Shown in pieces: positions 6,988 through 18,037 of a stretch of DNA of 64,000 nt (position 1 is its first letter; every line of letters begins with the position of its first letter). The DNA comes from Trinickia symbiotica (GTDB lineage: Bacteria > Pseudomonadota > Gammaproteobacteria > Burkholderiales > Burkholderiaceae), in the NCBI RefSeq assembly GCF_002934455.1, contig NZ_PTIR01000015.1, positions 62,001 through 126,000 of the forward strand, written 5' to 3'. Both the position numbers and the translations under genes were made by a program. Under the pieces are notes generated by a model, which was given only the letters and a program-made list of their open reading frames with translations, was not told where the DNA came from and ran no database searches.

Positions 6988-8228
6988 TGGACGGGCCCAC
7001 CCGAGACGGCGTCGTGACAGCCTTTCTCGCTCCGGGAAAGATCAGCTTGAGCTCGCTCCCGCCGCTCGCGCTGTACGTGCATTTCCCGTGGTGCGTGCGC
7101 AAATGTCCTTACTGCGATTTCAACTCGCATGAATGGAAAGGCGAGCGCTTCCCGGAGGACGATTACCTCGACGCATTGCGCGCCGATCTCGAGCAGGCGT
7201 TGCCTCTGGTCTGGGGGCGTCGCATCCATACGATTTTCATCGGCGGAGGCACGCCGAGCCTGCTTTCGGCGCGCGGGCTCGATCGGTTGCTTTCGGATGC
7301 GCGCGCCTTGCTGCCGATCGACGCCGATGCCGAAATCACGCTCGAGGCGAATCCGGGCACGTTCGAAGCCGACAAATTCGCGCAGTTCCATGCGAGCGGC
7401 ATCAACCGGCTGTCGGTCGGCATTCAGAGTTTCGATGACGCCCATCTGAAAGCGCTCGGACGCATCCACGGCAGTGCCGAGGCCCATCGCGCGGTGGAAA
7501 TCGCGGCTCGCCATTTCGACAACTTCAATCTCGATCTGATGTATGCGCTGCCGCGGCAGACGCTCGACGCTTGCCGGGCCGATGTCGAGACCGCGCTCTC
7601 CTATGCGCCCCCGCATCTCTCGCTCTATCACCTGACGCTCGAACCGAATACGCTCTTTGCGAAATACCCGCCGGCGTTGCCCGACGACGACGCTTCGGCC
7701 GACATGCAGGATTGGATTCATGAACGCATGGCGCAGGCGGGTTATGAGCACTACGAAGTATCGGCTTACGCAAAGCCGAACCGGCAGTGCAAGCACAACC
7801 TCAATTATTGGCGCTTCGGCGACTATCTAGGAATCGGTGCGGGCGCGCACTCGAAATTGTCGTTCGCACACCGAATCGTTCGGCAAGCGCGCTATAAGCA
7901 CCCCGCCACATTCATTGAGAAGGCACGCGCGGGAACGCCGGTACAGGAGGAGCACGAGGTCGATACGCACGAGCTGCCTTTCGAGTTCATGCTCAACGCG
8001 CTGCGGCTGAACGAAGGATTCCCCGTTCATCGGTTCCTCGAAAGGACCGGGCTCACGATGACCTCGATCGAACCGGCGCTGCAAGAAGCAGAACGGCGCG
8101 GGCTGATCGTGCGCGACTACGAGCGCATCGCGCCGACGCCGCTCGGGTCGCGGTTTCTCAACGATTTACAGGCGCTTTTTCTACGTGATCGTAACGAAGG
8201 CGGCGCTGAGAGCGAGCCGGTTCGCTGA
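6984..8228 (+). CDS. hemW: HemW, heme chaperone of the radical SAM family
   Basis: The 414-aa protein has the CxxxCxxC iron-sulfur motif in WCVRKCPYCDF (Cys37, 41, 44), GGGTPSLLS, and ALPRQTLDACRADVE. It also has HNLNYW, the heme-binding HNxNYW motif that separates HemW from the related coproporphyrinogen dehydrogenase HemN. HemW probably hands heme to respiratory enzymes in the cytoplasm. The first 28 residues precede the conserved LALYVHFPWC start, so the exact start is less sure. The ATGA overlap with rdgB supports the one given. Confidence 0.93.
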   Translation: MMDGPTRDGVVTAFLAPGKISLSSLPPLALYVHFPWCVRKCPYCDFNSHEWKGERFPEDDYLDALRADLEQALPLVWGRRIHTIFIGGGTPSLLSARGLDRLLSDARALLPIDADAEITLEANPGTFEADKFAQFHASGINRLSVGIQSFDDAHLKALGRIHGSAEAHRAVEIAARHFDNFNLDLMYALPRQTLDACRADVETALSYAPPHLSLYHLTLEPNTLFAKYPPALPDDDASADMQDWIHERMAQAGYEHYEVSAYAKPNRQCKHNLNYWRFGDYLGIGAGAHSKLSFAHRIVRQARYKHPATFIEKARAGTPVQEEHEVDTHELPFEFMLNALRLNEGFPVHRFLERTGLTMTSIEPALQEAERRGLIVRDYERIAPTPLGSRFLNDLQALFLRDRNEGGAESEPVR

Positions 8229-8275
8229 CGCTGGCAGCGCCGGCGCCGGCGTTTCGAGTTACAATCGCCGTCCTC

Positions 8276-8365
8276 GGAGGGCTGGCAGAGCGGTTGAATG
8301 CACCGGTCTTGAAAACCGGCAAGGCTTCACGGCCTTCGTGGGTTCGAATCCCACGCCCTCCGCCA
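8276..8365 (+). tRNA. tRNA-Ser(UGA)
   Basis: This is a 90-nt class II tRNA with a long variable arm. Acceptor GGAGGGC pairs with GCCCTCC, then G and CCA. Anticodon stem CCGGT/ACCGG encloses loop CTTGAAA, giving anticodon TGA. Its last 14 bases recur at 20249-20262, which makes it the likely integration target of the island that follows. Confidence 0.97.
8352..8365 (+). repeat. Left direct repeat of island (tRNA-Ser 3' end), putative attL
   Basis: CACGCCCTCCGCCA forms the last 14 bases of tRNA-Ser(UGA). An identical, same-orientation copy lies at 20249-20262. Use of a tRNA 3' end as attachment site is typical for integrative islands. The match is short and C-rich, so chance cannot be excluded. 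Confidence 0.5.
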
Positions 8366-8577
8366 GAATATCTCGCAAGCCGTTGATTTTAAAGTGTTTT
8401 ATAAATTGACTTGCGGAGCAACTATCAGTTCGACTATCAAGCCAATCCGCTCGAAGCAATCGCAGTTTCCCGCTTGTGATCGCGATCGCATACCGGGCAA
8501 GACGGAACGGTCGCATACCTGAATGCTTTGCAGGCGGAGCAACATCGCCAAGTCGTCCGAAGTCCCCCACCGCGACA

Positions 8578-10077
8578 CTAGAAGAAGCCGCCAGGAAGAC
8601 TCGAATGCACTCGGTCGCCAGTGACGCTTTCGAGGAACTCCTGCGGCAACATCCGTTCGAACACATCGAGCATTCGCGCGACAAGCGCCAAATGCTGATC
8701 CCAGTCGCCTCCTTCGACACGCCTCCAAGCGCTAGGCATATAGCGCACCAGAATGGATAACGCGTACAGGACAATCAAGCAGATCGCGCGATATTCGTGG
8801 ACTCCAGCAAGCGGGGGGAGAATCAACGTGCCGCTCTGAGTGAACGGGCTGCGATGAATGGGGAGCACTTCATACCAGAACTGCGAACCCGAATGATCGA
8901 CTCTCGCCCGGTACGTACGGCCGTCATCCTCGTCACCTTGCACGAGAGTAAGCTCGGCGATCGGCCACGTTGTCGAACGCAATCGATCCTCAGCCAAGCG
9001 GCCTGACTTGTCCACGAACCGCACATAGCTGCTGCCGACCGCCCTTGCCCCACCCATATGGTTCGACTCTGTGTCGAATATTGGTGTAACCCAGGAGGGC
9101 TCAAGATCATAGACATCAAAGAAGAGCGACCCGAGTTCAGGCAGCGTCGCAAGCAATTTGCCGAATGTGGTTACACAGTTGGCTGGGGTTTTGTCGACGT
9201 CGCTTGGCGTCTTTGGCTTCGCTCTCGGATAGCTATCGGTGCTGTAACCAAGGAATGTCGCCCAGCGTGGAAAAAAGCCTGTCGCAAGGACGCCAACATA
9301 CAAGGCCCCGAAGTCGTCGGTCCCAGCCGGAACCGTGAACAGGCCATGTCCCTGCTTTGTCATACCCTCCACTTCATCTAAGTCGGCAGCGCCTGCCGGC
9401 GAGGCCAACATCTCGGCGAAAGCCAATGCTAGTGAACCATAGTACAGGCTGATAATGCGTCGATTCGCGCTCTCGTTGGAGGCGCCACGGAAGTAATCGG
9501 CAGCGTTTCGAATCGCATACGCTACCCCCGCTGACTTCAGCTTTCTCTGCTCCATCGATAGACATACGGAGTCCTGTTCCGCGCGACGCGCCACAAGCTT
9601 ATCCGCAAGCTTCACGCTCCCCAGTTGCGTCAAATGCGCCCAAACCTCGTCGACTGGACGTTCAGCCGTGATGTGCCGCAGAGCGCGAGGCTTTTGCTTT
9701 TCTGTCGGCTTACCCGTTTCAGGTGCTACCTGTTTGTTCCACTCGACCAGAACCGGGAAAAAGTCATCAATCGGCGAAACGGGGGTTGAGATTCCAAACG
9801 CATAGCTCTCCACCTTGTACAGAGCTCCGTTGACGAATATGTGATCAACACATCCGTCCAGTTGCTTGTAGTGTCGGTTATCTGTCGCAGACGTGTACAT
9901 CAGCGCTAGAGAGCGAGTCACATCGGACTTTTCAGCGCGAATGGTTATATATTCGCCGCCGTCATTCTCGCCTATGACCGTTGCCGCCCAACCGTGCGTT
10001 CGCAGAGGTTTGAGTATTTGCTGATCAGCCGCCCTGCGAAGGATGTTCATCCGCTGTTCGACGCCAATGCCTCCCAT
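8578..10077 (-). CDS. YaaC-like protein, putative defence component
   Basis: This 499-aa protein is not an established enzyme. Residues about 185-225 (AIRNAADYF, then RRIISLYYGSLALAFAEML) and the hydrophobic C-terminal third resemble the YaaC-like family, whose function is unknown and which is often found in phage-defence loci. The first 110 residues form a separate mixed alpha/beta region (EYITIRAEKSDVT, then VDHIFVNGALYKVE) that I cannot assign. The start at 10077 is preceded by a strong AAGGGGGG Shine-Dalgarno sequence. It is the last of three leftward genes, 94 bases after the 71-aa gene, and could be read with them. No signal peptide is seen. Confidence 0.7.
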   Translation of the reverse strand: MGGIGVEQRMNILRRAADQQILKPLRTHGWAATVIGENDGGEYITIRAEKSDVTRSLALMYTSATDNRHYKQLDGCVDHIFVNGALYKVESYAFGISTPVSPIDDFFPVLVEWNKQVAPETGKPTEKQKPRALRHITAERPVDEVWAHLTQLGSVKLADKLVARRAEQDSVCLSMEQRKLKSAGVAYAIRNAADYFRGASNESANRRIISLYYGSLALAFAEMLASPAGAADLDEVEGMTKQGHGLFTVPAGTDDFGALYVGVLATGFFPRWATFLGYSTDSYPRAKPKTPSDVDKTPANCVTTFGKLLATLPELGSLFFDVYDLEPSWVTPIFDTESNHMGGARAVGSSYVRFVDKSGRLAEDRLRSTTWPIAELTLVQGDEDDGRTYRARVDHSGSQFWYEVLPIHRSPFTQSGTLILPPLAGVHEYRAICLIVLYALSILVRYMPSAWRRVEGGDWDQHLALVARMLDVFERMLPQEFLESVTGDRVHSSLPGGFF

Positions 10078-10171
10078 ACGCCCCCCTTTGCTTCATTTGA
10101 TTTGTGCGCTGTACGGCGTGGGCGACTGCGATATGAAATGTCGCTGCGCCAGCGTTCTCTCCGATCGGCAG

Positions 10172-10387
10172 CTAACGTTCTAGTTTTGACTGCCAGCGCG
10201 GGAACGCTTGCACGAAAGCCTCATCGATTTCGTACCCAAACAGGAGTTCATCACCGACCGTCGTTGTTTTCGGGTACTCAGGCAGTTGGACGGGTTGCCC
10301 AATCGGCTTCCCTCCCGTGAACGTCTCCACATCCTTGTGAAGCGCGACTAGTTCGTCTGTGCTCAGCCTGAACTTCAGGAATGACAT
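10172..10387 (-). CDS. Small hypothetical protein (71 aa)
   Basis: The protein starts MSFLKFRLSTDELVALHKD and is soluble, with one predicted amphipathic N-terminal helix and an acidic C-terminal part (GDELLFGYEIDEAFV). The start at 10387 is chosen because GGGAG lies 7 bases before the ATG; upstream in-frame starts up to 10435 lack such a site. I do not recognise the family. It sits between the TIR-like and the YaaC-like genes on the same strand, 118 and 94 bases away, so it may be a third subunit, an inhibitor, or an unrelated cargo gene. Confidence 0.6.
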   Translation of the reverse strand: MSFLKFRLSTDELVALHKDVETFTGGKPIGQPVQLPEYPKTTTVGDELLFGYEIDEAFVQAFPRWQSKLER

Positions 10388-10505
10388 TGTGGTCTCCCAG
10401 GTATGAATCATGAAATCGCCTGCCCGCATGGACACGGCACAGCGCCACGAACGGCATCAACGCTGCCTGCCAGGTCGAGCGGCTACCAAGCCGAATTAGA
10501 ACCAA

Positions 10506-11372
10506 TCATTTAGAGAGCAAGCTTGATTGAAGCGTCTCTAAACGCGCTCGAACGTCCACAGTCAATTTCCGCAGTCCTTCGCTGTTGTTAAGGTACCGAA
10601 TGTGCCGAATGTGCGCCACATCAAACGGTACGTCATGAGCGCTCTGCGTGATCATCATGACCTCGCGGGGCAGCGCGTGCGCGATGCCCATCTCGTAAAA
10701 CACATTTGCGTTTCGGTTTGTCAGGTCGCAGATAACGACGCTGGCTTTACACAAAAGCGTGACCACGTCCTGGATGATGTGGTCGCTAAGCCAGATATCG
10801 TCGGCTCGGGTTAAGGCCATTCCTGAGCTCGATGCGGCATCCACAAGGGCTTGATGCACCGGAGCAAACGCTGCATCGAACGGCATCATCGCGGCGACTA
10901 GCTTCGGGTCAGGCAGTACTTCTGGCAGTGCAAAAACCTTTGGGCGCTGTCGTGCGCCATTGCCCCGTTTAAGCAGCACGCGGAACAAGTCAACATCTTT
11001 AACCGACCAATGATTACGCGTGAACTCGTGAATCGAGGATTTGACATCGATGTCCAGTTCGGAGGCAAGAGCCGTGAGGACTGCGTTCGGAATGGGCGCT
11101 ATATCAGGATCAAAAACATACTCTATCTGAACTTGCCCTCCCGCTTGCGCAGCCCTAATTATCGTCCCTACACGAGCTGGGGGTTGTGTGCCGTCCCAAC
11201 TGGTCTCACTGGCGAAGATGGCGGGCAATTCCTTGAGCGCTTGCAGGTCCAAGATGCCGTTCGGCTTAAACCGCTCCGACAGATACTGGCTTGTGTATTC
11301 CAAGACCCGAGAACCATCGCACGTCCCTCGGTTGCCATCCCATTCTCTCGATGTAACGATCAAGCTGTACAT
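10506..11372 (-). CDS. TIR/nucleoside deoxyribosyltransferase-like protein with unknown N-terminal domain
   Basis: This 288-aa protein has two parts. Residues 1-155 are an unassigned region ending in EFTRNHWSVKDVDLFRVL. Residues 158-262 fit the nucleoside 2-deoxyribosyltransferase-like/TIR-like fold: AAMMPFDAAFAPVHQAL, ADDIWLSDHIIQDVVTLL, VVICDLTNRNANVFYEMGIA and a final strand. D216, N221-N223 and E227 lie where this fold places its base and glycosidic-bond residues. Such domains cleave N-glycosidic bonds (nucleotides, NAD) or bind nucleotide signals in anti-phage proteins. Which of these happens here is inference. It is the first gene of the leftward group with the 71-aa and YaaC-like genes. 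Confidence 0.7.
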   Translation of the reverse strand: MYSLIVTSREWDGNRGTCDGSRVLEYTSQYLSERFKPNGILDLQALKELPAIFASETSWDGTQPPARVGTIIRAAQAGGQVQIEYVFDPDIAPIPNAVLTALASELDIDVKSSIHEFTRNHWSVKDVDLFRVLLKRGNGARQRPKVFALPEVLPDPKLVAAMMPFDAAFAPVHQALVDAASSSGMALTRADDIWLSDHIIQDVVTLLCKASVVICDLTNRNANVFYEMGIAHALPREVMMITQSAHDVPFDVAHIRHIRYLNNSEGLRKLTVDVRARLETLQSSLLSK

Positions 11373-11521
11373 GCATGACCCCGGACCTGTTTTCTAGTGC
11401 GTCCATTGTACTGCCTCAGCCTCGTGCCATATAAGCCCTAGCTTCCATTTATGGTGACATGGGTCATCGACTAACGCATTGAACGCCCGATCTGGCGGCC
11501 AACAAACAAACGTCCGTTTTG

Positions 11522-11618
11522 TTACCGGGCTGGAGATCGCCGCCGCAGTGGTAAACAATTCCTTGCAAACAATATGATTACCGCTTAAAATGGTTACCGC
11601 GATTATTTACCGGGGTAA
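11522..11618 (+). promoter_or_regulatory. TTACC/GGTAA repeat cluster before the recombinase gene
   Basis: The 5-mer TTACC occurs at 11522, 11578, 11594 and 11607. Its complement GGTAA occurs at 11550 and 11614. The last two form the inverted pair TTACC-GG-GGTAA (11607-11618), covering the Shine-Dalgarno region just 2 bases before the ATG. The cluster surrounds the promoter at 11563-11591. It may be a res/crossover site or an autoregulatory operator of the serine recombinase. Confidence 0.55.
11563..11591 (+). promoter_or_regulatory. Sigma-70 promoter of the serine recombinase
   Basis: TTGCAA (11563-11568) and TAAAAT (11586-11591) are separated by 17 bases, with the start codon 29 bases after the -10. 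Two TTACC motifs overlap or flank the -10, which suggests repression by a bound protein. Confidence 0.6.
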
Positions 11619-11620
11619 CT

Positions 11621-12196
11621 ATGTCCCGCACGTTCCTCTACGCGCGTGTTTCGACCGCCGACCAGACCAACGACAACCAACTGCTTGAAGCTCGTACTGC
11701 GGGCTTTGTCGTCCAGCCGCGCCATACGGTTGCTGAGACGATTTCTGGAAATGTTCCGGCTGCGGAGCGCCCCGGCTTCTCGAAGCTGCTGGAGCGCTTG
11801 GACGAGGGCGATACGCTTGTCGTTACGAAGCTCGATAGATTGGGCCGCAATACGACCGACGTACTCGCGACAGTCGAGCGATTGGCCGCGCTCGGTGTCC
11901 ACGTTCGTTGTTTGGCACTCAAAGGCGTTGATTTGACGAGCGCGTCGGGCAAGCTGCACATGACCGTACTCGCGGCCGTTTCCCAATTCGAGCGCGATCT
12001 ACTCATCGAGCGCACGCACGCTGGGTTGGCTCGGGCGAGGGCCGAAGGAAAGAAGCTGGGACGTAAAGACTCACTTACGCGAGAGCAAAAAGAGGACATC
12101 CGGCGAAAGCTAGCGGCGGGCGCTACTGCGCGCGGGCTGGCGAAGGAGTATGCCGTTTCGCACCCGACCATCCTCAAAGTGACGCAACGCGGCTAA
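11621..12196 (+). CDS. Serine recombinase of the resolvase/invertase family
   Basis: The 191-aa protein has the catalytic N-terminal domain starting TFLYARVSTADQ with nucleophile Ser11, the conserved KLDRLGRN (D72, R73, R76), and the long E helix QFERDLLIERTHAGLARARA. A C-terminal helix-turn-helix follows (ATARGLAKEYAVSHPTILKV, about 168-187). It is full length for a Tn3-type resolvase or Hin-type invertase. No transposase accompanies it, so its DNA substrate is unclear; the motif cluster directly upstream is the obvious candidate. It may resolve or move the island, or invert a segment. It is followed by the caspase unit 60 bases downstream on the same strand. Confidence 0.93.
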   Translation: MSRTFLYARVSTADQTNDNQLLEARTAGFVVQPRHTVAETISGNVPAAERPGFSKLLERLDEGDTLVVTKLDRLGRNTTDVLATVERLAALGVHVRCLALKGVDLTSASGKLHMTVLAAVSQFERDLLIERTHAGLARARAEGKKLGRKDSLTREQKEDIRRKLAAGATARGLAKEYAVSHPTILKVTQRG

Positions 12197-12256: not shown

Positions 12257-12895
12257 ATGGAAGAAAAGCAAGTAAGCGATCGTGATTACTTTGTCGACCA
12301 AGCTGGTGCTAAAGCCTTCAACGAAGCTTTTCTGCGACTGGTGGCGGAGCAGCACAAGCAAATAGTCGCGCAGTACATGTCGGCGGAGAATTCGCTCCGC
12401 TTTCGCCACCGTGGTAGTTGGGAATACCCGGGCGCGCCGGAGGCTGTTGTAGGCCAACCTCGGCAACATTCATCGGCAGTCGAGACACAGTTCCAGCACT
12501 TGGTCGATAACGATCTCGACACCATCTATCGCAACGTCCAAACGCTGCGTGACGCGATGCATCGACAATTCGCTACGATGCTTTACTCCACGATGTCATC
12601 GGTCTGCGAACAAACGGGCAATATGGTTGACGCCAAGGCCGCGGGGTCTGTGGAAAACGCACTGCTCGAGATGATGGAAAAAATTGAGCTTGTCGCAGAC
12701 CATAACGGCGAGGTCAGGCTCCCTCAAATTCATGCCAGCCCGGAGACTGCTGCTCATATGGCGGAGTCCTTGAGTGCCGTCTCGCCCGAATTCAAGCAGC
12801 GCTTGGACGATATTTTGCAGCTAAAGAGAGAAGAAGCAATTGCCCGCGAATCGGAACGCAAAGCGAAATTCGCGCGCTACGGGGACGACGCATGA
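12257..12895 (+). CDS. Unknown 212-aa partner of the caspase-like gene
   Basis: The chosen start MEEKQVSDRDYF has GGAGG 8 bases upstream; an earlier in-frame ATG at 12203 lacks a ribosome site. The protein is soluble and mostly helical: the region FNEAFLRLVAEQHKQIVAQY, a central RNVQTLRDAMHRQFATML helix, and a charged C-terminal helix (LQLKREEAIARESERKAKF). No enzyme motif is seen. Its stop overlaps the start of the caspase-like gene by 4 bases (ATGA), so both are made together. By analogy with two-gene protease defence modules it could be a sensor, an inhibitor or a substrate of the protease. This is inference; I do not recognise the family. Confidence 0.8.
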   Translation: MEEKQVSDRDYFVDQAGAKAFNEAFLRLVAEQHKQIVAQYMSAENSLRFRHRGSWEYPGAPEAVVGQPRQHSSAVETQFQHLVDNDLDTIYRNVQTLRDAMHRQFATMLYSTMSSVCEQTGNMVDAKAAGSVENALLEMMEKIELVADHNGEVRLPQIHASPETAAHMAESLSAVSPEFKQRLDDILQLKREEAIARESERKAKFARYGDDA

Positions 12896-14805
12896 GGATT
12901 CTGCTTTCGATCGGGTGCAACGAGTACGACCATGCCAATGTTCTTAAGGGTGCCGAAGCCGATGCCCGCAGGATGTTCGAGGCTCTCGTTCGTGCTGACA
13001 TCGGCGATTACGACGAGGCCCGTTCGAAGCTGTTGCTTTCACCATCGGTAGACACTGTCCGTCAGGCCCTACGTGAAGCCCTCTTCTCTCATGGCGACGT
13101 CGACACATTTACGTTCTTCTTTGCTGGACATGGTGGTGTCCGAGCTGGAAGCTTCTACATGTGGGTCCGGGATACACGGTCCGATGCACAATCCATTACC
13201 GCTCTTTCTCTATCGGACATATTTCGCAGCATCAATGAGGCTGCGCCCGTGCAAAGCAATATCATCATCGACGCGTGCGAGAGCGGTGGCCTGATTGCTG
13301 ATCTCGGCGTCTTGCTCAAGGCGGATATGCTCGGCGACGCTGGCACGCCTGGAATTACCCTTGTGGCTACGTCGGCACAGAATCAGTTCTCAGGGGAAAC
13401 CGAATTGGGTGGCTTCGGCACGAACGCAATTCTGGATTGCATAGAAGGACGGGAGTTCGTGCAAGACACGGCAAGTGTCCTAGACCTAGTCGAAGTCGGG
13501 CGGTGCGTTTCTAATCGCCTTAGGGCTACGGATCAATCCCCGGTAGTGTGGGGATTGAATCTTTACGGTCCTCCGAAATTCTGCCGTAACCCGCACTACG
13601 GTAAAGACCCCGCAAAACCGCTCCGTGAGATCGCGCAATCCTGGCCAGCTGTCAGCGCGAGCGCGGCTCGCGAGCGCTACGACGATCTTTGGCGCGCGTA
13701 CGCTTCTGTAAGTGGCGAATGGCATCCCCGATCGTTCTCCGATGCAATGGCCAAGGCATTATCGCCACTTGCCGCAACGTCCGAACTACTTGCTGGGTTT
13801 GCCGAGCGCTTTGGTGACGCGGCACTTGAGCGGGCTGAGTATTCCGATGATGCATTCAGGAAGGCGCAGGTAAGCGCAGCGCTTGCAGTATGCCTGCTAC
13901 CATATCTCCAAACCGAATCGGTGGGACGTGCGGCTGGGCGATTCCTAGAGACGACGGGAGATCAGCTAATTGCTGCTGGTTCGAAATTGCTGAACGATTT
14001 GACCGGTGATGCCTATGCGCTTCTCGCCAGGCGAGGGGGCGGTCTTTCTGAGCTCTTCTACCTGCCGCTACGAGTCGCAAAGGTGGTGGGTTGGATGGCG
14101 GCCGCACCCGGGCTGTATAAGACTGACGATCCTCGACGGCGAACCGCCGAAGCGCTCTTCTCCAGGATTTTGCAGTCGCTGCTTGACCATTACCAAGGCT
14201 CGATCGTCGCGATGAGTGACGTCCAAGCTCCATATTGGGCGCTCGCGTTATCCCGTGCCGCACATCTTCATTTGGACCACCAAGCAGACGAACTGGCGGG
14301 GCTGCTTTTCAATTCCGTTGTCGCCTGCCGAGCACGTCTTGCGCGCTGGGATATCTCGCCGGAGTCGACGCTCGATTACTTACTTGCTCGACGCGAAAAT
14401 GACTACTCCAAGGTGCATGACCTTGTGGAGCGCCCCCTCGAAACATTGACCGTCCTAATGAGGATCGCTCCGGCACTCGATCTCGGTCAGGTCTTCGACC
14501 AGGACTTATGGAAGCTCGACGGTGTGCCCTTTGCCGCCTATGTCACACCGGCGTTTTCCGAATATGGCGAGGATATGATGACTCACGGACAAAACTTGGC
14601 CTGGACGGTAGGTCATGACATTTTCCGTGTGGCCGATCTCGGTCGATCATGGCCCTGCTCTCACCCCGAACCCTCTTCCGCCACCGTGGTCGGAGCCGTC
14701 GTATTAGCTTCACTCCTATATCCCGACAGAGTTCCGTGGTTTTGCTTGGAAGGGCTGCCTACAAGGGATGCTGGTGCAGTCGAATGCACAACGATGCGCG
14801 CGTGA
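12892..14805 (+). CDS. Caspase-like (peptidase C14) protein with large C-terminal domain
   Basis: The 637-aa frame starts MRILLSIGCNEYDH. The first 220 residues fit the caspase/metacaspase p20 fold. His80 in TFTFFFAGHGG and Cys129 in IIIDACESGG form the dyad, and strand LVATSAQNQFSGE follows. Residues 225-637 are a helical region without recognisable motif, a likely sensor or effector domain. Bacterial caspase-like proteases in defence loci are usually switched on by infection and cleave cellular or partner proteins. The gene is coupled to the 212-aa gene by ATGA overlap. The C-terminus is odd: after PWFCLEGL the sequence becomes low-quality for coding, while a neighbouring frame continues a plausible protein (see 14753-14980). 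A one-base shift near 14750 would extend the product by about 75 residues. Confidence 0.85.
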   Translation: MRILLSIGCNEYDHANVLKGAEADARRMFEALVRADIGDYDEARSKLLLSPSVDTVRQALREALFSHGDVDTFTFFFAGHGGVRAGSFYMWVRDTRSDAQSITALSLSDIFRSINEAAPVQSNIIIDACESGGLIADLGVLLKADMLGDAGTPGITLVATSAQNQFSGETELGGFGTNAILDCIEGREFVQDTASVLDLVEVGRCVSNRLRATDQSPVVWGLNLYGPPKFCRNPHYGKDPAKPLREIAQSWPAVSASAARERYDDLWRAYASVSGEWHPRSFSDAMAKALSPLAATSELLAGFAERFGDAALERAEYSDDAFRKAQVSAALAVCLLPYLQTESVGRAAGRFLETTGDQLIAAGSKLLNDLTGDAYALLARRGGGLSELFYLPLRVAKVVGWMAAAPGLYKTDDPRRRTAEALFSRILQSLLDHYQGSIVAMSDVQAPYWALALSRAAHLHLDHQADELAGLLFNSVVACRARLARWDISPESTLDYLLARRENDYSKVHDLVERPLETLTVLMRIAPALDLGQVFDQDLWKLDGVPFAAYVTPAFSEYGEDMMTHGQNLAWTVGHDIFRVADLGRSWPCSHPEPSSATVVGAVVLASLLYPDRVPWFCLEGLPTRDAGAVECTTMRA

Positions 14806-14980
14806 AATTGCGTGGGCAAAGCTGATCTTGCTAGACCAATTCTATCCGGGCATTGACGCTCTTATCGAGATCAGATTGCAATCACCTTCGAAGCGGAGCT
14901 CGCAGCATGAAGCTATCGGCATTTCTCGGCTGTTTTCATTCTGTCCGGAGGAATGTATTGTGTGGCGTGGGCGGGGATGA
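14753..14980 (+). pseudogene. Probable out-of-frame tail of the caspase-like gene
   Basis: In the +1 frame relative to the caspase gene the sequence reads GCLQGMLVQSNAQRCAREIA and on through AWAKLILLDQFYPGIDALIEI to a stop at 14980. This looks like the natural helical end of the upstream protein, while the annotated frame ends in TRDAGAVECTTMRA. A single inserted base, or a two-base loss, in the 14700-14765 stretch (GGAAGGG is a candidate) would explain it. Alternatives are a sequencing error, programmed frameshifting, or a separate small gene starting at the ATG at 14768, which has AAGGG just 1 base before it. Confidence 0.5.
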
Positions 14981-15053
14981 GGGTCACCCAACGGTCATGA
15001 GCGGTCGTTCGCTTGATTAAGCGCTACCTGTAGTGAACGGATATGAGGACCGC

Positions 15054-16847
15054 TTACTCCGCAGCAGCCGGTGGCGGACTCCAAAGCCTCTCTAGGTCTA
15101 CGTCCTCACTGGCTGGCTGCTTGTTGTTCGGCAAGCGGTCCACCTGAATCACCATAGGCAGTTCGAACGCCGTACCCGTCACCACACAGCATCCTTGGGA
15201 CAACCCTGGGATGAGTCCGCGCGAAAGCGCGTCCAGCGTCGAGATAGTGTTATCAATCAAATACAAATCTCTGTCATTCACTAGCCGATGGATAAAAAAA
15301 TTGTGTAGTTGGGAAACGATCGTAGGCGAGATGTCGGCCGGCCGCTGGCTGGCAATGGTGATAAACATTCCAAACTTGCGTCCCTCCTTGATAATTTCCT
15401 CGAACTGCTCCAGCCGGTAGTCCTTCCAAGTTTCGCTTTCGCGCGTCGACTGGTCGGACAGAATGTTGTGCGCTTCGTCTACTATGAGATGGATGGTGCG
15501 GTCGGGCGGATTGGCGACCGTAGCTTTGTGACTGTTGTAGTAGTGTTTCGCGAACAGCAACGGCAAGACCTTTTTGACCTCGTTGTTGCAACGACGCATC
15601 GAGATTACCGTAAGCAAACGCTCGACTGGTGGAGCATTCGAAATCGACACGACCTTCCGAAGACTAACCAAAGAGGACTCGACGCGTTTGAGAAGAGGCT
15701 GGATATGTTCGAACTGAACGTATCCAGCGTTCAAGTCGGACATCAATTGCAGATTGACGCGTAGCACGAGTTGGTCGAATTCGTCGAGCCCCTGGACGTC
15801 AAGTGTGTCGACAGTTGGCGCAATGCGCGCGTTGTACTGTGCCCCATCGGGGTCGATGAACGCGCCTTGGTAGTTGAAGCGACCATTGCGATACCATGTA
15901 ACGTTTGCCAGCAGATCGAGCAGCGTCTGGTTTCCCATGCGCCGTGCCACGGTTCGCATCAGGTCCAGCGTTGCGGGCTTGACTTCGCCAGCGCAAAACG
16001 ACTGCTGGAATTTGATCTTTGCGTAGTTGGCCAGCGCCCCCGGGTTGGCTCCATACCTAAGCTTGCCCGCGATGACGCGATTGAGAAATGGGCGCTGCGT
16101 GTTGGCCGTGGCCTGGAAAAGCAGCGACATCGTTTCAAGGTCCCAGAACTCCTGCGGTGCTAGAGGGAAACGGGCCGTTGGGTCGTTCGGGCCGGGATCT
16201 GTTTGCGTGGACAACTGGTAGACCGTCTTGTGGATCGCCGGAGCTAGCTGCTCACCACCGTATTCGCCATTGAAGTCTAAGATGATAAAGCGGCTTTTCC
16301 CTGCGATGAGCGGTAGCTTGAGATCGAAGAGGACAGTATGAAGCTTAGCGAGAGTGTTCGACTTGCCGCTGCCAGTGTTGCCGAATATGCCGATATGGCT
16401 GTTGAAGAGACGCTTCCACGGCAGCCCGACCGCGATCTCCTCCTTCAGCATGCGCCCGATTCTAAATTCGGTGTCCGCCCCGCGATCGAAGATAGACCGG
16501 ATTCTCTCCTCGGCAAGCAGGTAAGCCGCGTCTTGGATCATCGGCAGATACTTGATGCCCTGAGTGAAGCCGGTGCGGTCGAAGAAACCAATTGGCCTAG
16601 CCTCGACCTTCCGCACAAACGTCGTCCTGCCGTCGCGGGTCTCTATTCGACTCTCGTCCAAGAACTCACCTTCGACCATACAGATGATGTCGCGGAACCC
16701 GCGCTGGATCGACAGGTACTCGCGGATCGACACCCCCTTATATTTGTCGCCCGCGTGGAAAAGAGTTTCCTTGCTCGATTGCTCGTCGATTTTTAGGACC
16801 ACCTTGGTGCCATGGACGGCGATGACTTCGCCCACGCGGATGCTCAT
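15054..16847 (-). CDS. herA: HerA-type hexameric ATPase (SIR2-HerA defence system)
   Basis: The 597-aa protein starts with a HerA-type beta-barrel domain (MSIRVGEVIAVHGTKVVLKI). The RecA-like motor follows, with Walker A GNTGSGKSNT at 156-165, IILDFNGEYGG, a helical insertion at about 230-420, Walker B HLIVDEAHN, and the sensor segment ITIASQRPADISPTIVSQ followed by an arginine-containing stretch. HerA ATPases form hexamers that translocate DNA. When paired with SIR2 they form a large complex in which nucleotide binding by HerA controls NAD+ degradation during phage infection. The ATG overlaps the SIR2 stop by 4 bases. The gene runs opposite to, and converges with, the caspase unit. Confidence 0.9.
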   Translation of the reverse strand: MSIRVGEVIAVHGTKVVLKIDEQSSKETLFHAGDKYKGVSIREYLSIQRGFRDIICMVEGEFLDESRIETRDGRTTFVRKVEARPIGFFDRTGFTQGIKYLPMIQDAAYLLAEERIRSIFDRGADTEFRIGRMLKEEIAVGLPWKRLFNSHIGIFGNTGSGKSNTLAKLHTVLFDLKLPLIAGKSRFIILDFNGEYGGEQLAPAIHKTVYQLSTQTDPGPNDPTARFPLAPQEFWDLETMSLLFQATANTQRPFLNRVIAGKLRYGANPGALANYAKIKFQQSFCAGEVKPATLDLMRTVARRMGNQTLLDLLANVTWYRNGRFNYQGAFIDPDGAQYNARIAPTVDTLDVQGLDEFDQLVLRVNLQLMSDLNAGYVQFEHIQPLLKRVESSLVSLRKVVSISNAPPVERLLTVISMRRCNNEVKKVLPLLFAKHYYNSHKATVANPPDRTIHLIVDEAHNILSDQSTRESETWKDYRLEQFEEIIKEGRKFGMFITIASQRPADISPTIVSQLHNFFIHRLVNDRDLYLIDNTISTLDALSRGLIPGLSQGCCVVTGTAFELPMVIQVDRLPNNKQPASEDVDLERLWSPPPAAAE

Positions 16848-18037
16848 AACAAGTCCTCGGCGCCCGCAGCGTCCGCCATCGGTGTCGCGGGCTCTGCTGG
16901 AGGAACTGTAGGCGCGGCGGATGTAGCCTCGAGTGCCTCTGGCCAGGCCAGCACTTGCTTATTGAAGAGGGTGAAGTCCATCACCCCTTCGTCGAGCACC
17001 ACGCATTGGACGTTTCGATGACCTTTGAACTTGCCCGCCATTGCAGTGTGCCCCAACTTATTGAAGCAGCATACGAATACGTGCAAGCCGGGGTTGGAGA
17101 GGGAACGCATGACGAGGTTAAGGATGTGCTCGTCGGCGAACGAGAAACCAAAGGTGATAAGTACTGCGTTGGGCTTTTCGAGTTCATAGCTGAGCAGCCG
17201 CAACATCTGGTAATAGTGCTCCTCATAAACCGTCTCGTGGAACTTCCACTTCGTCGGATTCACGATGGGCATCTGTTCATACCTTGTCCAAAACGCCTTC
17301 ATCGCCTCGTCGGTAAATCCTGGTTCAGGGAGGTCCGCAAGCGTGAGGGCTGGATTATCGAGGGCAGCGGAAAATGGTTGCAACAACTCGTTCGCTTCGT
17401 CATCAAGCAGAGAAGCACGTGCCGACAGGTCGTAGCCAACCTGAATCGCGGCGCCTAACTTACTCCAGTACACTGATCCATGCAGATGGATTAGGTTTAT
17501 CTGCGGGATGCTGCTCTGATAGCGACCAAAAACCCCGGCCTGGCAAAGGTAAGCTCCGAAGTTCCTGGCCTGCAGAATGCGCTGGGTGAAGCCACGCGCT
17601 CCGTCGTTCAGCACGAAGTCAATCTGGCCTTCCCTGATGAGCGCGTCAGCCACGAGCGGGAAGCAGCCATCGTAGTTAGTCGTGAAAACGTTGCAGCGCC
17701 GATCCAGCGCCTTGCGGCGTTTCACCATCTCCAGCGCAGTCATCAGGAAGGTGCGGTAGTTCTTGATGACCGTGGCGCCTGAATCTGTAGCCATCGCGCC
17801 ATCCAGGCTGAGCCGTTCAGCGGGCCGGATGCAGTTCGCGTAGTAGTGCATGAACAGCGGGATCAAGCGCCGGTCGTTCTCCTGCTCGAACTTGGTTGCA
17901 AGCTCTTCCAGGGTGTAGCGCGCGTCGCCGTCGCCAGTTCGTAGCTGCAACTGCAGGGTCGGCAAGAGGCCGAATGACGCGCCCGATCCAAACAAGAAGT
18001 TGATGTCCTTGTCATAGATGTCGCTGATTGCAATCAC
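16844..18037 (-). CDS. SIR2-domain NAD+ hydrolase (SIR2-HerA defence system)
   Basis: The 397-aa protein carries a SIR2 Rossmann domain from its first residues: NFLFGSGASFGLLP (GAS motif 19-21), FTTNYDG (118-124) and HLHGS with catalytic His186. The final third (NAVLITFGFSFADEHI, then LHVFVCCF) closes the SIR2 fold. In this family the domain degrades NAD+ and so stops growth of infected cells. The C-terminal 35 residues are a Pro/Ala-rich tail, perhaps a tether to HerA. The start is a GTG at 18037 with a near-perfect AAGGAGG 5 bases upstream. It is first of the two-gene operon. Confidence 0.9.
   Translation of the reverse strand: MIAISDIYDKDINFLFGSGASFGLLPTLQLQLRTGDGDARYTLEELATKFEQENDRRLIPLFMHYYANCIRPAERLSLDGAMATDSGATVIKNYRTFLMTALEMVKRRKALDRRCNVFTTNYDGCFPLVADALIREGQIDFVLNDGARGFTQRILQARNFGAYLCQAGVFGRYQSSIPQINLIHLHGSVYWSKLGAAIQVGYDLSARASLLDDEANELLQPFSAALDNPALTLADLPEPGFTDEAMKAFWTRYEQMPIVNPTKWKFHETVYEEHYYQMLRLLSYELEKPNAVLITFGFSFADEHILNLVMRSLSNPGLHVFVCCFNKLGHTAMAGKFKGHRNVQCVVLDEGVMDFTLFNKQVLAWPEALEATSAAPTVPPAEPATPMADAAGAEDLL

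Follow-up and report, generated by a model that had tools for sequence, protein, structure and literature searches.

What does a caspase-like protease do in a bacterium when it is encoded together with a small helical protein of no described family? The question is raised by a locus of Trinickia symbiotica, in a stretch of 64,000 nucleotides (contig NZ_PTIR01000015.1, positions 62,001 to 126,000) that we call, as a whole, the window. There, a gene for a 212 aa protein, hereafter the partner, overlaps the gene for a caspase-fold protease. We found that the two form a real, conserved two-gene caspase module, for which we infer a role in defence. The original prediction, made from the DNA letters alone, had described two translationally coupled genes; both reading frames were indeed open and shared an ATGA. 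The features of the pair are as follows.

12257..12895, + strand: partner gene, 212 aa, helical in the model and below every family cut-off
12892..12895, + strand: 4-nt start/stop overlap, ATGA, of the partner and protease genes
12892..14805, + strand: caspase-fold protease gene, 637 aa
12892..13596, + strand: caspase domain, about residues 1-235, with the dyad His80 (13129-13131) and Cys129 (13276-13278) and the acidic S1-like residues D24, D127 and E170
13612..14526, + strand: C-terminal helical region of the protease, about residues 241-545, without a family match

The pair was found in 13 distinct loci with both genes, the window included. The original prediction had proposed a survey of linkage in other genomes, and the 12 further loci answer it positively, with one exception that is taken up below. 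Hosts of the pair were P. fungorum (L005), a congener of the window genome (L004), two Ideonella (L007 being one), Variovorax (L008), Rugamonas (L010), Lysobacter and Asticcacaulis (L012). It also occurred on a plasmid of Sulfitobacter (L013), on two contigs from IMG/VR and on a scaffold (L049) whose label 'Bacteriophage sp.' is unverified, and it spreads across beta-, gamma- and alphaproteobacteria. For this count, L003 (G392) was regarded as the same locus as L005, their partner identity being identical at 76.3%, and, among the IMG/VR records, L014 and L015 as one contig and L016 and L017, which have the same upstream frames, as one locus. With the caspase start placed at the overlap, a 4-nt overlap was possible in 11 of the 13 loci; in Lysobacter the genes overlap by 29 nt, and in L004, whose caspase is cut by the end of the locus, the junction was unclear. 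Distances among partner proteins correlated with those among caspases (r 0.83), and none of 5000 permutations reached as high a value; 12 loci entered this test, P. fungorum being omitted because its caspase is broken. When open frames of at least 80 aa from 14 loci were compared all against all, no third gene was common to three or more loci, frames antisense to the pair aside. Two frames were common to two loci only: a resolvase, with related copies ahead of the pair in P. fungorum and in the window, and an unidentified frame that L007 and L011 share.

Residues 2-198 of the protease matched Pfam Peptidase_C14 with 47 bits (cut-off 21.4) at E 3.3e-12, and His80 and Cys129 were invariant in 12 of 12 aligned caspases. 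This places the protein in the caspase superfamily (peptidase C14) and confirms the caspase fold with an intact dyad that had been read from the window. D24 and D127 were also invariant in this alignment and position 170 was acidic in all 12 sequences; an Asp two residues before the Cys and another in the first helix are the sequence marks of the acidic S1 pocket of paracaspases and metacaspases. We take the MALT1 counterparts of D24, D127 and E170 to be D365, D462 and E500. Because three acidic S1-like positions are conserved, as in paracaspases and metacaspases, the protease probably cleaves after Arg or Lys. Its C-terminal part of about 400 residues, called unassigned in the original prediction, matched no Pfam family at E up to 1, and the model placed helices across residues 242-542.

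None of the partners passed a curated cut-off when 12 of the 13 were scanned against Pfam and all 13 against NCBIfam, and in PADLOC (2023), scanned with the window's partner only, no family appeared at E up to 1. Its model consisted of helices, with no strand of at least three residues (pLDDT 75.5, built on a 10-row alignment). The description of the partner as a helical protein of no known family thus held, and the profile search for a described defence family, which had been suggested as a check, found none. H51, G121, G151 and P156 were invariant, and so was the pattern E198-R201-[KR]204-F205 near the C-terminus, a conserved tail motif E-x2-R-x2-[KR]-F. In the same three libraries, nothing identified the partner as a known toxin, an EACC1 protein or a component linked to TIR. 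A Spectrin_4 match (E 0.006) occurred in one member alone and a Cytochrom_B562 match (E 0.0019) in the L014 partner; both were below cut-off and were set aside.

Our leading reading, offered tentatively and at less than even confidence, is that the pair is a self-contained, protease-based defence module of two genes, probably acting by abortive infection, in which the partner is a brake that works through its tail. The partner would bind the caspase and hold it inactive, the partner's basic tail occupying the S1 pocket or its vicinity and serving as a pseudosubstrate or as the first site to be cut. Infection would disturb this contact, either directly or via the helical region, and the freed protease would itself cleave cell proteins. 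Both this last step and abortive infection are suggested by the lack of a separate effector gene that accompanies the pair consistently. In our view, the tail would be the means by which the partner holds back or licenses the caspase.

The same tail bears on an unlikely alternative, in which the partner is the effector: the caspase would cut it and set free a helical part that harms the cell at its membrane, its DNA or its translation, much as gasdermins and pro-nucleases do. A conserved basic residue does precede the invariant Phe near the partner's C-terminus, and Canu offers a precedent for protease-activated partners in the accessible part of its description (PMC12799240). However, in the window's partner only about 8 residues follow the basic site, and therefore a cut there would remove little; no catalytic or pore-forming family matched the partner in Pfam or NCBIfam.

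Several points weigh against a tail-mediated brake in a defence module. The tail could be conserved for some other reason. The Gallionellaceae caspase (L006), the exception mentioned above, lies 135 bases from a contig end, and no partner end was seen in the three forward frames of the 134 bases that precede it. In P. fungorum the caspase gene (L005 6001-7908) is broken by two in-frame stops (codons 429 and 632), and the partner frame is intact. In addition, several loci, e.g. L007 and L008, had no obvious defence neighbours, these neighbours having been viewed as open frames only.

The module is rare and sporadic. With the genome of the window counted, partner matches were present in 3 of 398 genomes sampled from the family, 1 of 369 from the class, 1 of 399 from the order and 2 of 11 from the genus, and a caspase match at E up to 1e-30 in 1 of 398 from the phylum. 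The scan of genome contigs was based on short patterns, and its 8 loci are a lower bound. Among plasmids, a caspase match was obtained in 35 records; one of them, Sulfitobacter CP144550, covers at least 80% of the protein, and it is also the sole plasmid record that carries the partner. No relatives were found in viral contigs by single-protein scans with the L049 and L013 caspases.

Another explanation is a toxin-antitoxin-like addiction pair, with the protease as the toxin and the partner as its labile inhibitor; mobile elements would keep both for their own persistence, phage defence being secondary. The small upstream gene with its 4-nt overlap, the occurrence on the Sulfitobacter plasmid and on IMG/VR contigs, and an integrase or resolvase alongside in three loci are all consistent with it. 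We regard this explanation as quite unlikely: the partner matched no DNA-binding family in Pfam or NCBIfam, and a preference for plasmids is not evident, the replicon type being known for a minority of the loci.

The surroundings of the pair in the window speak to the inferred role in defence. The genes lie on an island of GC 0.564 (flanks 0.632 and 0.631) that adjoins a tRNA-Ser (8276-8365); the assembly comprises 6.7 Mb in 61 contigs. No convincing attachment-site repeats of the island were found. Its other genes are listed below.

8578-10077, - strand: YaaC-like gene, 499 aa, near the island start, which adjoins the tRNA-Ser
10506-11372, - strand: weak TIR-effector-like gene, 288 aa (PADLOC E 4.6e-07, C-terminal part)
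11621-12196, + strand: serine resolvase
15054-18037, - strand: HerA and SIR2 pair (PADLOC E 1.2e-160 for HerA and 5.5e-46 for SIR2)

The 288 aa protein also had a nucleoside 2-deoxyribosyltransferase domain match below cut-off (E 0.05), and its gene is not common to the other loci. Because these neighbours sit on a low-GC stretch by a tRNA-Ser, 'defence island', the term of the original prediction, is a fair one, and the strong HerA and SIR2 matches back the location that it had given.

The pair might instead belong to a regulated proteolysis or stress pathway that merely happens to sit on an island. Several loci do lie among frames not recognised as defence genes, and many bacterial caspases have, to our knowledge, no known role. 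We consider this very unlikely, however, in view of how sporadically the pair occurs (1-3 genomes in samples of about 400, the window's own among them), the low GC of the island, and the mobile-element and defence neighbours in several loci.

The neighbours in three of the other loci were as follows. In Rugamonas (L010 3141-13359), three caspase modules stand in a row: TIR, TIR-like and caspase genes resembling type IV Thoeris, then the present pair and, directly downstream of it, a Canu-like trio of a caspase, a 493 aa protein and a metallo-beta-lactamase (MBL)-fold protein (7986-11679). After this trio comes a protein that carries an LA2681-like HEPN domain and shows weak TPR matches. Because one trio lies upstream and the other downstream of the pair, the arrangement suggests that these neighbours are separate, adjacent systems. 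In Asticcacaulis, the pair is directly followed, on the opposite strand, by a Dsr1-like SIR2 defence gene (L012 8495-12334, - strand; PADLOC E 2.7e-84). On the L049 scaffold, AAA ATPase-like and UvrD-like genes (13803-17971, - strand), Gabija-like by eye, are found a few genes from the pair; the scaffold is labelled as phage, and its neighbouring genes look bacterial by eye.

Weak matches of the partner raised one further explanation, namely that it is a descendant or a mimic of the spine-helix region in a phage major capsid protein, and that co-assembly with the capsid protein of the invader switches the caspase on. The partner would then be a domesticated capsid piece, made up of the end of the E-loop, the spine helix and the first part of the A domain, and would serve as bait that triggers an Arg/Lys-specific caspase. 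PF25209 (Phage_capsid_4) appeared in 4 of the 12 partners scanned against Pfam (E 0.00089, 0.0061, 0.0064 and 0.2), in roughly one register and always below cut-off, and no other family appeared in more than one partner. An NCBIfam HK97-fold capsid model matched 1 of 13 partners (E 0.006), and a PHROG 'major head protein' 1 of 10 (E 0.09).

In profile-profile comparison of the partner with capsids, the best score was 34.1 (probability 33.5%), whereas none of 150 column shuffles reached it (maximum 20.7) and the reversed profile scored 13.3; sets of 150 shuffles were made against each of two capsid alignments. Twenty clusters from phage contigs reached at most 21.1, a narrow capsid cluster among them scoring 17.3; the controls are modest, since the clusters were drawn from one type of phage contig and include that capsid cluster, and since the scores shift with the choice of capsid sequences. 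The first capsid alignment was entered by 22 of 30 loci; for the later set, 114 of 133 sequences passed length and stop filters and were, together with 15 earlier sequences, thinned to 22. Two partner-capsid alignments span the stretch from the E-loop end through the spine helix, and one continues into a 'G ... P' stretch.

We nevertheless hold the capsid bait to be highly improbable. The profile-profile scores varied with the choice of capsids, the lowest being 12.2 and the highest 34.1, and the best PF25209 score, 20.0 bits against a cut-off of 27, falls short of an HK97-fold major capsid assignment. The window's own partner had no PF25209 match at E up to 1, and the partner profile found nothing better than E 0.68 among single frames from capsid loci. 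The helical partner model, at pLDDT 75.5 from a 10-row alignment, does not obviously resemble a capsid; a PDB sequence search with the partner returned no capsid, and neither did a structure comparison among the matches listed (71 chains aligned), an absence that carries no weight. If the bait were real, bacterial immunity would be arming a caspase with a fragment stolen from a capsid. The capsid-sensing CapRel and TIR systems are reportedly sensors rather than capsid look-alikes, and not caspases. Capsid sensing by these systems (PMC9712102, PMC11312562) resembles the present pair only under the bait explanation, where a capsid protein is the trigger.

Returning to the tail-mediated brake in a two-gene defence module, we compared the pair with described protease systems, as far as the accessible portions of the cited papers go. 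Canu (CanABC) has a MALT1-like caspase and a co-encoded partner, CanB, which together form a soluble complex; the system also has Ig-like domains and a pro-nuclease of the MBL fold (PMC12799240). It shares with the present pair a caspase with a co-encoded partner and a defence-island setting, but no nuclease gene is common to our loci, the MBL gene being found only in L010 beside another caspase, and the C-terminal region of our protease, searched as part of the whole protein, is modelled as helical. In type IV Thoeris (Rousset 2025), a TIR-made nucleotide activates a caspase-like protease, the executioner that degrades cellular proteins (PMC12847820). The likeness here is the caspase-like executioner, a role that would also fall to our protease; the difference is that no TIR gene is common to the pair loci, and where TIR genes do flank the pair, in L010 alone, they stand with a caspase of their own.

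Like the present pair, the EACC1-caspase system comprises two genes, a small 5' gene and a 3' caspase, its 5' gene encoding a single-transmembrane EACC1 domain (PMC7159879). Our caspase domain matched NCBIfam NF047832, the EACC1-associated caspase subfamily, at 71.6 bits, but the cut-off is 140 and the C-terminus of the protease has no family match. EACC1 itself gave no match in the Pfam and NCBIfam scans of the partners (presence of an EACC1 model in these libraries was not confirmed), and the partner model shows long helices. Protease-driven death, as proposed for the pair, is also the mode of CARD-NLR/gasdermin systems and LypABC (PMC13236601); unlike in these, no NLR ATPase or gasdermin gene is common to the pair loci. 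A literature search found no description of the pair, subscription journals being mostly outside its scope.

The original prediction's statement that known caspase-linked systems use other partners is right for the systems compared here, although its list lacked type IV Thoeris (TIR and caspase) and Canu (caspase and pro-nuclease). Its proposal of a possible new abortive-infection type is partly supported, by the conserved linkage, intact dyad, family-less partner, defence-island context and a partner set unlike those of the compared caspase systems.

The known wirings of caspase immunity in bacteria are few, namely a TIR signal, NLR-CARD and gasdermin, type III CRISPR and a pro-nuclease, according to the available text of PMC12799240. 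A conserved, minimal two-gene wiring without a co-encoded effector would rank among the simplest bacterial caspase switches.
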